Assembly: GCF_000184745.1 (NCBI RefSeq)
Contig: NC_014931.1
Coordinates: 5,146,001-5,210,000, forward strand
Length of the DNA stretch: 64,000 nucleotides
Origin: Variovorax paradoxus EPS
Lineage (GTDB): Bacteria; Pseudomonadota; Gammaproteobacteria; Burkholderiales; Burkholderiaceae_C
Direction: 5' to 3'
Below, piece by piece: positions 57,355 through 62,288 of this stretch (position 1 is its first letter; each line of letters starts with the position of its first letter). The notes under the pieces are model-generated. The model searched no databases. It was not told the DNA's origin and saw only the letters and a program-made list of their open reading frames with translations. Position numbers and translations under genes: made by a program.

Positions 57355-57777
57355 TCAGTGGCGGCCGACGATGGCGGCGGTGGCCATCAGTTCTTCGAGC
57401 AGCGCCAGCGAGACCTTGCCCGAGACCTTGTACGGGTCGAGTTCGGGCTTCTCGGAGTACTTGAGCAGCGTCGAGGCATTGAGCTTCGAGAGGTTGACTT
57501 GCCCCATCGTCCAGCCGCCGAAACGGCGCTCGGAGATTTCTTCGTAGTGCAGCAGCACCACGTCCTTGTGGCGCGCATCGCGCTGAATGTGGCCGTAGAG
57601 ATCGCTGATGGCGTCGCGCCCGCCCTCGATCGCCTGCAGGAAAGTGCCGGCACCGTAGCAGAGGATGCCGGTGATGCCGCACGCCGGATTGTGGGTGCGC
57701 GATTTCGCAAGAATCGCCTCGATGGCCGCAGGGCTGGTGTCGACGGCGCGGCTTGCGTAGAGAAGACGGACCAGCAT
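57355..57777 (-). CDS. BLUF-domain blue-light sensor
   Basis: A 140-residue FAD-binding photoreceptor. The key BLUF residues are all present: Tyr7 (LLYASRA), Asn30 (HNPACGITGIL), Gln48 (FLQAIEGG), Trp89 and Met91 (GGWTMG). Tyr, Gln and Trp form the light-switched hydrogen-bond network. A C-terminal helical segment of about 40 residues follows, so it is a short BLUF without an output domain that acts by protein contact. It starts 3 bases after folE ends, so light sensing is genetically tied to pterin synthesis. The cause of this link is unknown. Confidence 0.9.
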   Translation of the reverse strand: MLVRLLYASRAVDTSPAAIEAILAKSRTHNPACGITGILCYGAGTFLQAIEGGRDAISDLYGHIQRDARHKDVVLLHYEEISERRFGGWTMGQVNLSKLNASTLLKYSEKPELDPYKVSGKVSLALLEELMATAAIVGRH

Positions 57778-57779
57778 GT

Positions 57780-58511
57780 TCAGCTCTTTCGTGGCAACAG
57801 GGAAAGAAATTCGCGGCGCAGGCTCGGGTCCTTGAGGAACACGCCGCGCATGACGGAATTGATCATCTTGCTGTCCATTTCCTTCACGCCGCGCCAGGCC
57901 ATGCAGAAGTGCTCGGCTTCCATCACCAGCGCGAGGCCGTCGGGCCGGGTCTTCTCCTGGATCAGGTCGGCCAATTGCACGATCGCCTCTTCCTGGATCT
58001 GAGGACGGCCCATGACCCACTCGGCCAGGCGCGCGTACTTCGACAGGCCGATCACGTTGGTGTGCTCGTTGGGCATCACGCCGATCCAGAGCTTGCCGAT
58101 GATCGGGCAGAAGTGGTGCGAGCAGGCGCTGCGCACCGTGATCGGGCCGACGATCATCAGCTCATTCAGGTGCTCGGCGTTGGGAAACTCGGTGAGCGGG
58201 GGCGGCGGTACGTAGCGGCCGCGGAACACCTCGTTCAAATACATCTTGGCCACGCGGCGCGCGGTGTTGTCGGTGTTGTGGTCGTTCTCGACGTCGATGA
58301 CGAGGCTCTCGAGCACGGCCTTCATCTTGACCTCGACCTCGTCGAGCAGCGACTCAAGTTCACCAGGCTGGATGAACTCGGCGATGTTGTCGTTGGCGTT
58401 GAAGCGCTTTCGCGCTGCATTCAGGCGCTCGCGGATCTTGACGGAGACGGGCGTGCCCTCGTCATCGTCTTTTCGATCGGGGAGCGGTTCGACGTCGGTT
58501 TTCCTCAGCAT
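57780..58511 (-). CDS. folE: GTP cyclohydrolase I
   Basis: FolE turns GTP into dihydroneopterin triphosphate, entry to folate and pterin synthesis. The 243-residue protein has an N-terminal extension of about 50 residues. The type I signatures follow: MTVRSACSHHFCPIIG-like ITVRSACSHHFCPIIGKLWIG with the zinc cysteines and histidine, and GLSKYARLAEW and EAEHFCMAWRGVKE. It is the first gene of the operon. nudB, the next enzyme for dihydroneopterin triphosphate, lies about 0.8 kb upstream on the same strand. Confidence 0.95.
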   Translation of the reverse strand: MLRKTDVEPLPDRKDDDEGTPVSVKIRERLNAARKRFNANDNIAEFIQPGELESLLDEVEVKMKAVLESLVIDVENDHNTDNTARRVAKMYLNEVFRGRYVPPPPLTEFPNAEHLNELMIVGPITVRSACSHHFCPIIGKLWIGVMPNEHTNVIGLSKYARLAEWVMGRPQIQEEAIVQLADLIQEKTRPDGLALVMEAEHFCMAWRGVKEMDSKMINSVMRGVFLKDPSLRREFLSLLPRKS

Positions 58512-58596: not shown

Positions 58597-59355
58597 CGAA
58601 AAGTCAGCTACCAGCGGGAGGTGATCGGACATCCGCGCCCAGATCGGGCCGCGCGGGACGGTGCAGGAAAGCGGCTCCAGCTTGCGGCCGTAGACGAAAT
58701 CGAGCTGCGCCACCGGCAGCCGCGAGGGGTAGGTGAGCGTGCGCGGGCCGCGCAGATCGCTGGCGTCGCGCAGGCCCATTGCGTTCATGGCGTAGCGCAT
58801 GCGCGCGCCCCAGTCGTTGAAGTCGCCGGCCACGACCACGGCCTCGTGGGCCGGCACTTCGCGGTCAATGAATTCCCGCAGGCGCGCGATCTGCCGCACG
58901 CGGCTTCCCTTGATGAGGCCCAGGTGCACCACGATGGCATGCACCGGCTGGCCTTCGACCTCGATCACGACGTGCAGCAGCCCGCGCTGTTCGAAGCGGT
59001 GGTCGGAGATGTCCTGGTGGCCGGTGCGGATCACCGGCCAGCGCGTGAGCAGCGCATTGCCGTGCTCGCCATGGCGCGTGACGGCGTTGGTTTCGTAGAC
59101 GGCGGTGTAGCCCTCGGGCGCGAGGAAGTCGGCCTGCGGCAGCTCGGGCCAGCGCGCGAAGCGGGCCGCAGCCTGCCGGTTCATCTTGCGCACTTCCTGC
59201 AGGCAGACGATGTCGGCGTCGAGCTGCTCTATGGCGTGGCCGAGGTTGTGGATTTCGAGCCGCCGGGCGGGCCCGATGCCCTGCACACCCTTGTGGATGT
59301 TGTAGGTCGCGACCCGGAGGTTGTTGGCTGCTGCTGCGGCTGGCGGCTGGTTCAT
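58585..59355 (-). CDS. Endonuclease/exonuclease/phosphatase-family protein
   Basis: A 256-residue metal-dependent phosphodiesterase fold. The acidic and His residues of the family are in YNIHKG, CLQEVRK, VVHLGL, GDFNDWG and SDHLPLV. It may cleave nucleic acid or a phospholipid; the relation to nudB and folate is not clear. The start ATG overlaps the nudB stop (ATGA). The order aspS-nudB-this gene is conserved in Burkholderiales as far as I recall. Confidence 0.87.
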   Translation of the reverse strand: MNQPPAAAAANNLRVATYNIHKGVQGIGPARRLEIHNLGHAIEQLDADIVCLQEVRKMNRQAAARFARWPELPQADFLAPEGYTAVYETNAVTRHGEHGNALLTRWPVIRTGHQDISDHRFEQRGLLHVVIEVEGQPVHAIVVHLGLIKGSRVRQIARLREFIDREVPAHEAVVVAGDFNDWGARMRYAMNAMGLRDASDLRGPRTLTYPSRLPVAQLDFVYGRKLEPLSCTVPRGPIWARMSDHLPLVADFSLPN

Positions 59356-59813
59356 CGCGCAAATTCTGGCAGCAACAGAATGGCTTCGGCGTTCGACGGG
59401 GAAAAGCATGCGTCGGCAGCCTCCCGGTACGGCAGCCATTGCCAGTCGGTGTGTTCGCGCGGCGCGAGGCGGGGCGTCAGGCGCTCGGGCACGCAGAGGC
59501 CGAACAGGTGCTCGGTGTTGTGCGTGACACCGGGCTCGTAGCGCGCGCGCCAGCCGGGATAGATCTCGTAGATGTTGCTCAGTTGCCAGTCGACCAGTTG
59601 CGAGGCCAGCGCGGTGCCCTCGCCGCATTCGATGCCGGTTTCCTCGGCCACCTCGCGCGCCGCAGTGAGCGCGAGCGGCTCATCGACCGCATCCTTGCTG
59701 CCGGTGACCGATTGCCAGAACTCGTGGGCATCGGCACGCCGGATCAGCAGCACGTCGAGCGCCGGCGTGTGGATCACGACCAGCACCGACTCTGGAATCT
59801 TGAAGGGCTTCAC
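59352..59813 (-). CDS. nudB: Dihydroneopterin triphosphate diphosphatase
   Basis: NudB removes pyrophosphate from dihydroneopterin triphosphate in folate synthesis. The 153-residue length fits. The Nudix box is GSKDAVDE followed by REVAEETGIE, with WQSVTG just ahead. The start is a GTG before KPFKIPESVLVV. It normally follows aspS directly, but here two toxin-antitoxin genes lie between. Confidence 0.9.
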   Translation of the reverse strand: MKPFKIPESVLVVIHTPALDVLLIRRADAHEFWQSVTGSKDAVDEPLALTAAREVAEETGIECGEGTALASQLVDWQLSNIYEIYPGWRARYEPGVTHNTEHLFGLCVPERLTPRLAPREHTDWQWLPYREAADACFSPSNAEAILLLPEFAR

Positions 59814-59821
59814 AGCGGTGT

Positions 59822-60139
59822 TCAGACGCCGCTGATGACCGCGTCGAGCGCAGCCACCAAGTCGTTCGACGCGATGCGCACATTGCCTTTCGCGGTACCC
59901 AGATCCTTCACCCGGAAAGGCGAGGTCATCTGAGGCAATGCGAAAAAAGTTTCCCCTTCCCAGTGGACCGGCGGACACAGCCGGCGCGGCGCCTTGGGCG
60001 GAAGGTACTTCTGGGTCGTCAGCGGCATGACCAACCGCGTCGGCAACACGCCCAGCAGATCGCTTTGCATGTCGACACACCACGGGAATGCAGTGCGCTG
60101 GGCCTTGTCGGGATTGGCGTAGATGTCGAATTGCGCCAC
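59822..60139 (-). CDS. CcdB-like toxin
   Basis: A 105-residue protein of the CcdB family, whose F-plasmid member poisons DNA gyrase. QFDIYANPD, FVDVQSD-like CVDMQSDLLG, RLVMPL and the C-terminal ASNDLVAALDAVISGV align with F CcdB. The last three residues, Trp-Gly-Ile in F CcdB and needed for gyrase poisoning, read Ser-Gly-Val here. The antitoxin gene lies 6 bases upstream. The gyrase target is therefore likely but not certain. Confidence 0.9.
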   Translation of the reverse strand: MAQFDIYANPDKAQRTAFPWCVDMQSDLLGVLPTRLVMPLTTQKYLPPKAPRRLCPPVHWEGETFFALPQMTSPFRVKDLGTAKGNVRIASNDLVAALDAVISGV

Positions 60140-60145
60140 AGGTGC

Positions 60146-60415
60146 TTACCAGGGGCGGAAGTTTTCGCCGAAAACACCGTGCGTCTCGACCAGCTCGTTC
60201 TGCGCAGCAATCCAGTCCTTGTATTCCTCGTTGAATTCGCGCTTGCGCTGCGCCATCGACTTCTGCTTTTCGAGCGCTTCGAGTTCCGCAAAACGCGCAG
60301 CGGAAACAAGAACGACCGCCACGCGGTCGTTCTTCATCACATGCACCGGTTCACGCTCGGCTTGGCCGAGGTAGTAGCCGAATCGGTTCTTGGCTTCGGT
60401 GGCGGTGATCTGCAT
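60146..60415 (-). CDS. Hybrid antitoxin: Phd/YefM-like N-terminus with CcdA-like tail
   Basis: An 89-residue antitoxin. The first 50 residues (TATEAKNRFGYYLGQAEREP and VAVVLVSAARFAELEAL) match the Phd/YefM DNA-binding fold. The last 15 residues, LVETHGVFGENFRPW, align without gaps with the CcdB-binding tail of F CcdA, sharing Glu, Gly, Phe, Arg and Trp at the same spacing. The ATG at 60415 has a good GGAG site 7-8 bases upstream and leaves the operator at 60431-60455 outside the gene. A longer frame using a TTG start exists. It is the partner of the CcdB-like toxin. Confidence 0.85.
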   Translation of the reverse strand: MQITATEAKNRFGYYLGQAEREPVHVMKNDRVAVVLVSAARFAELEALEKQKSMAQRKREFNEEYKDWIAAQNELVETHGVFGENFRPW

Positions 60416-60430
60416 GGCTGGCTCCGGGGA

Positions 60431-60455
60431 GTGATTAGCCATTTTAGCCAATCAC
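60431..60455. promoter_or_regulatory. Operator-like palindrome of the toxin-antitoxin pair
   Basis: GTGATT (60431-60436) and AATCAC (60450-60455) are inverted arms around a 13-base centre that also contains two TTAGCCA direct repeats. It lies 16 bases upstream of the antitoxin ATG on the minus strand. Autorepression by the Phd-like domain is the likely role. Confidence 0.65.
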
Positions 60456-60479
60456 ACTGCCCACGCCAACCTGCCGGAC

Positions 60480-62288
60480 TCAGGCTGCGGCTTGCGGCGT
60501 GTTCCGCAGCTTGATGTGCAGTTCGCGCAGCTGCTTCTCGTCGACCGGGCTCGGCGCCTGCGTCAGCAGGTCTTGCGCGCGCTGGGTCTTGGGGAAGGCG
60601 ATCACGTCGCGGATCGACTCGGCGCCGGTCATCAGCATGACCAGGCGGTCCAGGCCGATGGCGATGCCGCCGTGCGGCGGGGCGCCGTACTGCAGCGCGT
60701 CGAGCAGGAAGCCGAACTTGAGCTGTGCGTCCTCAGCGCTGATCTTCAGCGCACGGAACACCTTGCTCTGCACTTCCTCGCGGTGGATACGCACCGAGCC
60801 GCCGCCCATCTCGATGCCGTTGAGCACCATGTCGTAGGCCTTGGCGATGCACTTCTCGGGGGCGGTGTCCATGAGGTCTTCATGGCCGTCCTTCGGTGCG
60901 GTGAACGGATGGTGCACGGCGCTCCAGCGCTGGCCTTCCTCGTCGAACTCGAACATCGGGAAATCGACCACCCAGAGCGGCGCCCAGCGATCGTCGAACA
61001 GGCCGCTCTTCTTGCCGAAGGCGCTGTGGCCGATCTTCACGCGCAGCGCGCCGATGGCGTCGTTGACGACCTTTTCCTTGTCGGCGCCGAAGAACAGGAT
61101 GTCGCCGTTGCGCGCACCCGTGCGGGCGATGATCTCGGCCAGCGTGTTGTCGTCCAGGTTCTTCACGATCGGGCTCTGCAGGCCTTCGCGGCCGGCAGCC
61201 GCGTCGTTCACCTTGATGTAGGCGAGGCCCTTTGCGCCGTAGATCTTGACGAACTCTTGGTACGCGTCGATTTCACCGCGCGACAAGCCGCCCTCGCCGC
61301 CGCCGCCAGGCACACGCAATGCGACCACGCGACCGTCCTTTTGCGTCGCGGCGTTCGAGAACACCTTGAACTCGACCCGCTTCATCAGCTCGGTGAGTTC
61401 GGTGAATTCGAGCTTCACGCGCAGGTCAGGCTTGTCCGAGCCGTACTTGAACATCGCATCGCCGTACGTCATGGTCGGGAACACCGGCAGGTCGATGCCC
61501 GCGGCATTGCGGAACACGTTGCGGATCATTCCTTCGAACATCTCGCGGATTTCCTCTTCGGCGAGGAACGAGGTCTCGATGTCGATCTGCGTGAATTCGG
61601 GCTGGCGGTCGGCGCGCAGGTCTTCGTCGCGGAAGCACTTCACGATCTGGTAGTAGCGGTCGTAGCCGGCCACCATCAAGAGCTGCTTGAAGAGCTGCGG
61701 CGACTGCGGCAGCGCGAAGAAGCTGCCGTCGTGCACACGGCTGGGCACGAGGTAGTCGCGCGCGCCTTCGGGCGTGGACTTGCCCAGCATCGGCGTCTCG
61801 ATGTCGATGAAGCCGTTGGCATCGAGGAACTTGCGCGTTTCCATCGTCACCTTGTAGCGCAGCATCATGTTGCGCTGCATGGCCGGACGGCGCAGGTCGA
61901 GCACGCGGTGCGTGAGGCGGGTGGTTTCCGAGAGGTTGTCGTCGTCCAGCAGGAACGGCGGCGTGACCGACGGGTTGAGCACCTTCAGCTCATGGCACAG
62001 CACTTCGATCTTGCCACTCTTGAGGCTGTCGTTGGTCGTGCCTTCGGGGCGCGAACGCACGAGGCCGGTGATCTGCACGCAGAACTCGTTGCGCAGGTTC
62101 TCGGCCACGGCGAAGGTGGAGGCGCGATCGGGGTCGCACACCACCTGCACGTAACCTTCGCGGTCGCGCACGTCGATGAAGATCACGCCGCCGTGGTCAC
62201 GGCGACGGTTGACCCACCCGCACAGGGTGACGGTCTGGCCCAACAGGGCTTCGGTCACAAGACCGCAATAGTGAGTACGCATGGCCAT
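60480..62288 (-). CDS. aspS: Aspartate-tRNA ligase
   Basis: A 602-residue class II synthetase. The N-terminal anticodon-binding OB fold ([27 protein letters not shown]) is followed by class II motif 2 ([18 protein letters not shown]), the bacterial GAD insert (about 290-420) and motif 3 ([15 protein letters not shown]). It may charge both tRNA-Asp and tRNA-Asn, as usual in beta-proteobacteria. Two in-frame ATGs lie six bases apart at the start. Upstream are DUF502 and FmdB genes. Confidence 0.97.

Follow-up and report, generated by a model that had tools for sequence, protein, structure and literature searches.

A Phd-type antitoxin with a CcdA-like tail beside CcdB in Variovorax paradoxus EPS, and the apparent exchange of tail tip and toxin as a block among relatives

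Introduction

We wanted to understand how a CcdB toxin can be paired with an antitoxin that does not begin like CcdA, and whether such a pair is an isolated case. The locus lies in a stretch of 64,000 nucleotides of the Variovorax paradoxus EPS genome (NC_014931.1, positions 5,146,001 to 5,210,000; hereafter, the window). The genome is 6.55 Mb long, in a single contig, and has one CcdB match. A preliminary description of the sequence had proposed a domain swap, in which a Phd/YefM-like DNA-binding part is attached to a CcdB-binding tail.

Results

Layout of the locus

The features are collected in Table 1. On the minus strand, the order of transcription is the tRNA synthetase gene, which we take to be aspS, then the promoter-like site and the palindrome (60469-60436), the antitoxin gene, ccdB and the Nudix gene, presumably nudB. 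As in a type II toxin-antitoxin operon, the antitoxin comes first and ccdB follows its stop codon after 6 bases on the same strand. Further downstream on that strand lie a match to the BLUF blue-light sensor domain at 57355-58020 (100.8 bits) and one to GTP cyclohydrolase I at 57780-58511 (144.2 bits).

Table 1. Positions in the window of the antitoxin-toxin pair, its upstream elements and its neighbours.
Feature	Coordinates	Strand	Remarks
Hybrid antitoxin gene	60146..60415	(-)	89 aa, stop codon included; Pfam Phd and CcdA both above cut-off
Phd/YefM part, about residues 1-50	60266..60415	(-)	Pfam match 2-63
CcdA-like tail, residues 47-89	60149..60277	(-)	Pfam CcdA 24.0 bits
Tail tip, residues 73-89	60149..60199	(-)	Stretch that appears swapped with ccdB among relatives (segment identities)
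ccdB toxin gene	59822..60139	(-)	GTG start, 105 aa, Pfam CcdB
Imperfect palindrome TGGCTAAAATGGCTA, probable operator	60436..60450	(-)	Conserved in Phd-type upstreams
Sigma-70-like promoter TTGGCG-17-TAAAAT	60441..60469	(-)	-10 box within palindrome
Nudix hydrolase, downstream neighbour, one slot edge	59352..59813	(-)	NUDIX 52.3 bits
Class II tRNA synthetase with GAD domain, upstream neighbour, other slot edge	60480..62288	(-)	

The antitoxin has two distinct halves

The whole antitoxin matched Phd/YefM (PF02604) at 34.2 bits (cut-off 29.8) and CcdA (PF07362) over positions 30-71 of the 71 in that profile (cut-off 22.4), while a DUF5646 match of 17.8 bits stayed below its cut-off of 27. When the halves were searched separately, as the preliminary description had suggested, residues 1-55 matched Phd at 33.0 bits and no other Pfam family, and a 34-residue tail fragment matched CcdA at 23.9 bits and no other family. 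The claim that the first 50 or so residues fit Phd/YefM is therefore borne out. The protein does not start with the ribbon-helix-helix (RHH) domain of the CcdA family, and its partner is CcdB, not the Doc, RelE or PIN toxin of a Phd/YefM antitoxin.

The gapless alignment of the last 15 residues with F CcdA was reproduced against the CcdA chain of 3g7z, with the five identities (E, G, F, R and W) in register. Along the 36 residues of this chain, 8 of 36 were identical, including those five. Among shuffled versions of the last 36 residues, 559 of 100000 reached 8 identities overall and 218 of 100000 reached five in the last 15, and because of the latter the pairwise match on its own is modest. 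The case for a CcdA-like tail is carried, over the pairwise match, by the profile score and by conservation, F61, W68, G80 and W89 being invariant across 65 aligned relatives. The CcdA match is barely above the Pfam cut-off. NCBIfam matched the Phd part and gave no match for the tail. No CcdA chain was matched in a PDB search with the antitoxin sequence, nor in one with the profile of the 65 relatives, which found Phd/YefM chains, and a protein search with the tail alone returned 21 proteins, 0 of them with a CcdA Pfam label. The AlphaFold2 model of the antitoxin (65 sequences) consisted of helix-strand-strand-helix followed by helices, with a mean pLDDT of 88 that dropped to 64 across the last nine residues. 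Its best Foldseek matches were RelB1 (9g12) and YefM (3d55 and 2a6q), none at E<=0.001. Altogether, the observation of a hybrid antitoxin is confirmed.

The toxin belongs to the CcdB family

The toxin matched CcdB (PF01845) at 83.6 bits (cut-off 28.6) over the entire profile (1-101 of 101). Its closest solved relative was the CcdB of 2kmt (E=2.4e-20), which we take to be that of V. fischeri, and F CcdB (1vub) was matched at E=1.9e-5. Trp99 of F CcdB matters for gyrase poisoning; the residue aligned with it here is Ser, and the 2kmt CcdB likewise lacks this Trp. A CcdA peptide has been solved together with CcdB in 3g7z and 3hpw, and 3tcj lists that peptide with the CcdB of 2kmt.

The hybrid is a common lineage linked to CcdB

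Relatives of the antitoxin were encoded at 28 loci of genome records, from Variovorax, Xenophilus, Limnohabitans, Rhodoferax, other Burkholderiales and Zoogloeaceae. A CcdB match lay downstream at 26 of the 28; the toxin was broken, in two frames, at L014, absent at L020 and broken at L028. We then surveyed 299 genomes of the family of the window with the hybrid profile (E<=1e-6, scoring no more than 17 candidates in each genome), calling full-length the relatives whose match reached profile position 86 or beyond, and counting CcdB when it lay no further than 350 bases downstream and on the same strand. This gave 75 places, 44 full-length and 31 matching in the Phd part only. CcdB was downstream of 41 of the 44 full-length relatives (198 bases away at most) versus 3 of the 31 Phd-part-only matches. 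The three full-length places without CcdB were in G772 and G720, where none was found, and in G864, where the copy was broken; of the three Phd-part-only places with CcdB, L202 and L203 bear another CcdB-type tail and G954 is a remnant. A tail common in Phd proteins without CcdB, which the preliminary description had named as a refutation, was looked for and not seen, and the domain swap proposed at the outset is supported by both the separate halves and the linkage of tail to CcdB. Seen from the toxin, 44 of the 128 CcdB places in this bacterial family had a Phd-type antitoxin. These results indicate that the hybrid is a common lineage in the family of the window and not a one-off oddity.

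A chance similarity, with an ordinary Phd antitoxin standing beside an unrelated CcdB, might be invoked given just five identities with F CcdA in the last 15 residues. We rejected it as scarcely credible, since the CcdA profile match is above a curated cut-off and 41 of the 44 full-length relatives are linked to CcdB.

The window genome has two other Phd antitoxins. By eye, the tail is absent from both. One stands beside a ParE toxin, matched at 38.6 bits, the other beside a PIN-like protein whose 20.9 bits are below the cut-off. Among the matches listed, most named relatives of the hybrid carry the label 'prevent-host-death family'. PADLOC gave no result. One of 72,556 plasmid records, a Variovorax replicon of 1.24 Mb, contained a relative, one homologous protein (P0067) comes with a plasmid label from its source, and none was found in the phage records searched; carriage by plasmids or phages is therefore disfavoured as the main story. 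Hybrid antitoxins without CcdB downstream (L020, L198 and L204 in G772, L206 in G720) may be solitary antidotes or leftovers. At L189 (G880), about 160 additional bases lie between antitoxin and ccdB as compared with L188.

Such losses are what one would expect if the module were degenerate or its toxin harmless, the antitoxin being retained as a solitary regulator or antidote: CcdB is lost or broken in some relatives (a short frame at L014, none at L020, a broken copy at L028, a partial match in G049, no CcdB in G772 and G720), and Ser replaces Trp at the position of F Trp99. However, both frames of the window are intact and preceded by a promoter-like site and a palindrome, the closest solved CcdB also does without that Trp, and the repeated swaps of toxin with matching tip described below suggest ongoing selection. 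We consider degeneracy quite unlikely.

Phd partners of CcdB appear to have arisen at least twice

We also counted from the toxin side, over 140 CcdB places (the one in the window, 60 from a 300-genome sample of the order and 79 from a 398-genome sample of the phylum). The count excludes 16 further places, of which one sits at the edge of a contig and the rest are partial or weak matches. With models built from the same set, the antitoxin was RHH at 126 places, Phd at 6 and other at 8; a few of these calls are soft, namely L162, for which a poor frame was picked, L163, for which no antitoxin was, and the pair L166 and L152, which Pfam matches to CcdA. At L114 and L160, a start without Pfam match, perhaps AbrB/MazE-like, precedes a CcdA-like end (16.4 and 21.7 bits, both below cut-off), with CcdB downstream. 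At L103, a DUF2281-like start (21.7 bits, below cut-off) bears a tail ending SFADQHSTL, and the Phd part of L202 and L203 bears a tail ending SFADEHSTL that resembles those of RHH antitoxins (e.g., L097, L105 and L106). In these sequences, Phd is not the sole unusual start on such tails.

As a side observation, P0125 belongs to a large family with 1006 matches, made of a MLKEVGASGQISLGKKYAGQLFD start and a CcdA-like end, in which most of the named ones among the matches listed are 'hypothetical'. By its motif, the start may be AbrB/MazE-like; because the N-terminus of the AlphaFold2 model of P0125 is of low confidence, the fold name depends on that motif. Furthermore, within one CcdB clade, a tail ending SFAD(E/Q)HSTL was seen on three starts, namely RHH (L097, L105, L106 and L112), Phd and DUF2281-like.

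The CcdB tree was built from 199 sequences, reduced to 146 rows once same-class near-copies were removed, on a short alignment that leaves 60 of 143 branches open. It omits L118, L217, L219, L162, L163 and short CcdBs, and the CcdB frame of L203 looks broken at its end. On this tree the Phd label needs 2 changes, and the starred branches force 2: the main clade of Phd partners holds 35 rows (SH-aLRT 99), and L202 and L203 fall within a clade of RHH partners (99). The AbrB-like pair forms one side of a branch (86). The tree thus suggests that Phd partners of CcdB arose at least twice.

The tail might nevertheless not descend from CcdA, if a Phd antitoxin took CcdB as its partner and its tail converged on CcdA-like contacts. 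The Pfam CcdA score just above the cut-off and the absence of a Pfam CcdA match at E<=0.01 in the second-lineage antitoxin L202 would be in accordance with this, and the Phd partners of the main lineage belong to one CcdB clade, so that there is a single old event to judge. On the other hand, the main-lineage tail matches the CcdA profile through its final position, and the Phd part of L202 and L203 with its RHH-like tail stands beside the same CcdB clade, which looks like transfer. We therefore regard convergence as unlikely. In the origin that we prefer, a CcdA-type toxin-binding tail would have been joined to a Phd DNA-binding domain together with its operator, replacing the usual ribbon-helix-helix domain.

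The upstream motif tracks the DNA-binding domain

Upstream motifs were counted in windows of 120 bases for Phd loci and 150 bases for RHH loci, the starts of the latter being placed roughly, and both motifs were picked post hoc from sequences already inspected. With up to 2 mismatches, TGGCTAAAATRGCYA was present in 59 of 67 Phd-type upstreams versus 1 of 126 RHH upstreams, whatever the main tip type (41/46 for tip A, 17/18 for tip B, 0/2 for tip C and 1/1 unclassed). Conversely, TATGCGCAT (at most 1 mismatch) was present in 97 of 126 RHH upstreams versus 1 of 67 Phd upstreams. TGGCTAAAATRGCYA is an imperfect palindrome, at a median of 20 bases ahead of the start codon. In the window, its TAAAAT is the -10 of the sole promoter-like site between 59780 and 60560, where 0.1 would be expected. 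The palindrome of L202 and L203 is longer, its arms being separated by TGTACA; YefM operators contain TGTACA. The operator-like motif hence appears to track the DNA-binding domain and not the toxin. The TATGCGCAT-like motif in the upstreams of RHH loci L030-L168 is a possible operator of that class.

The tail tip and the toxin appear to be exchanged as a block

We compared tips and toxins in 66 distinct pairs (one pair with a broken toxin was dropped), which gave 180 pairings with a Phd-part identity of at least 0.85. In the 37 pairings with tips no more than 0.4 alike, CcdB identity was at most 0.47 in 37/37, and in the other 143 it was above 0.55 in all; there were no exceptions, the pairings being non-independent. 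With L118 included, the partial correlation between tip and CcdB given the Phd part was 0.57, and that between Phd part and CcdB given the tip was 0.46, values that 0 of 2000 permutations reached in either case. Because the latter correlation remains, head and toxin share descent and are not fully independent.

Fourteen locus pairs were compared by segment, given here in the order upstream, antitoxin codons 1-72, tip, ccdB and downstream. Between L187 (tip A) and L188 (tip B) of genus g448, the identities were 92/94/42/57/90%; the drop begins after codon 72 and stops near the end of ccdB. In the same genus, L187 and L189 gave 93/96/47/57/88%, while L188 and L189, both with tip B, were 90-95% alike in every segment. 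Similar profiles were obtained for Variovorax L001 and L010 (92/82/47/59/84%) and Xenophilus L011 and L013 (93/80/52/52/88%). In the same-tip pairs L184/L186 and L196/L197, the tips were 83 and 89% and the ccdB genes 76 and 79% alike. The 45 bases ahead of the start were 69% alike in both Variovorax A-B pairs. According to these alignments, three genera seem to have had the last 17 or so antitoxin codons replaced together with ccdB as one block, with the Phd part and the flanks left in place.

Fast divergence in place, without recombination, would also make the tip and CcdB of close relatives differ, since toxins and antitoxins can evolve fast, and other stretches of L187 and L188 are also less alike, one some 90 bases ahead of the start (68%) and one some 1050 bases beyond it (67%). 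Against this, their flanks and codons 1-72 have kept at least 90% identity next to a tip at 42% and a ccdB at 57%, and the type-B CcdBs of several genera form one clade, as shown below. Divergence in place is very unlikely, and we retain block replacement.

In one chromosomal slot, tip type agrees with the CcdB tree better than with the host tree

Among 58 loci tested, a few of which are the same place twice, 24 matched both aspS and nudB, and L176 matched aspS alone. Of these 24 loci, 23 have the antitoxin flanked by the two genes; at L025 the pair comes after nudB. Trees were made for 18 distinct aspS-nudB loci whose pairs are intact, 11 of them with tip A and 7 with tip B (L025 and L176 excluded). 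On the aspS tree, taken as that of the host, 6 changes of tip type are required, with at least 4 forced by starred branches and a shuffled mean of 5.7, and the Phd-part DNA tree likewise requires 6, with at least 3 forced. On the slot CcdB tree tip type changes once (95/94), which 0 of 500 shuffles reached: the type-B CcdBs of Variovorax, Xenophilus, g448 and others form one clade, separate from the type-A CcdBs of their close relatives. With L025 and L176 added, the changes were 7 (aspS), 6 (Phd part) and 1 (CcdB).

The slot was empty in G874 and G943, two genomes of the genus of the window with 100% estimated completeness, where 16 bases separate the two genes as against 666 in the window. 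Other cargo was seen in L225 (an Mrr restriction endonuclease) and L227 (a CsgG-like gene). Since its content varies in this way, the slot may be an insertion hotspot.

Discussion

Our main reading, to which we give a probability of about 0.87, is that the locus encodes a chromosomal CcdB module of type II. In it, the Phd domain would serve autoregulation of the operon, and toxin recognition would fall to the CcdA-like tail, chiefly to its tip. The Phd/YefM domain would dimerise and bind the palindrome across the -10 box, so that the antitoxin, probably with the toxin, would repress its operon. The C-terminal tail would wrap around the CcdB dimer and neutralise it, binding like the CcdA peptide of 3g7z and 3hpw, and CcdB, once released, would poison DNA gyrase. 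In a study of Bernard and Couturier from 1991, listed among the references of PMC7167474, going by its title, the 41 C-terminal residues of CcdA reportedly suffice against CcdB. Neutralisation is what we infer from the linkage to CcdB, and the exchange of tip and toxin as a block strengthens this; the two halves, the gene order, the ties between tail and CcdB and between upstream motif and DNA-binding domain, and the block exchange itself can be read directly from the DNA.

We also considered that the aspS-nudB slot of Comamonadaceae-type bacteria could be a toxin-antitoxin locus that switches specificity through cassette replacement by homologous recombination, a reading to which we give even odds. 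Recombination would take hold in the conserved Phd domain at one end and in nudB at the other, and the cassette would comprise the last 17 or so antitoxin codons and the entire ccdB. The operon would thereby gain a new toxin type with a matching tip, its promoter, operator and DNA-binding domain remaining unchanged. The switching of type would be favoured by selection, which might act, for instance, against neutralisation by other ccd systems. In that case, antitoxin genes would carry a built-in joint for recombination, with regulation on one side and specificity on the other.

Antitoxins are frequently described as modular, and here this shows at the level of sequence, the DNA-binding domain going with the upstream motif and the tip with the toxin, while recombination at one chromosomal slot appears to have used the joint between head and tip. 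This offers a natural experiment in how toxin-antitoxin pairs are built, since tip and toxin appear to swap together while the head stays. The natural allele pairs (L187/L188 and the Variovorax and Xenophilus pairs) are ready reagents for finding the residues of CcdB specificity, and could show whether one regulator serves several toxins. Our results also suggest that a CcdB system can lie behind the label 'prevent-host-death family'.

The modular principle of antitoxins is already known, and in the passages available of two articles the modularity of type II antitoxins is treated as established (PMC10440598; PMC7354431). In titles, abstract openings and passages of the literature searched, we found no description of a Phd-CcdB pair, and in titles and abstract openings nothing on the exchange of tip and toxin as a block, which is most likely the new part. 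In the passages concerned, Makarova et al. 2009 give Fic/Doc, PIN, RelE and the MazF-like SMa0917 family as partners of PHD, CcdB not being named there (PMC2701414). Passages on the NetFlax network describe modular antitoxins, Panacea with Phd-C, PAD1 and ZFD (PMC10440598). The principle is the same, in that a linear neutralising element that can be exchanged is attached to another domain; unlike in our case, no word beginning with 'ccdb' occurs in the text, and no allelic exchange of tip and toxin is described in those passages (PMC10440598). TASmania, in the part of the article available, describes the pair A46.T60 (CcdA.CcdB) as restrictive, with 98.79% of T60 associated with A46, whose nearest Pfam family is CcdA (PMC6504116). 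The T60 toxins are CcdBs of the same Pfam family as ours, whereas in the bacterial family sampled here over a third of CcdB places have the Phd type; as the tail scores as CcdA, TASmania could have hidden such hybrids.

Compared with the Phd/YefM antitoxins (PF02604) that accompany Doc, RelE or PIN toxins, the hybrid has the same N-terminal domain and, according to its model, the same predicted fold, but a different toxin partner and a different tail. Compared with F-plasmid CcdAB (PF07362, PF01845), it has CcdB downstream of the antitoxin and agrees at the E, G, F, R and W positions of the tail, but its DNA-binding part is Phd/YefM and not ribbon-helix-helix, and its upstream motif differs from that of the sampled RHH ccd operons.
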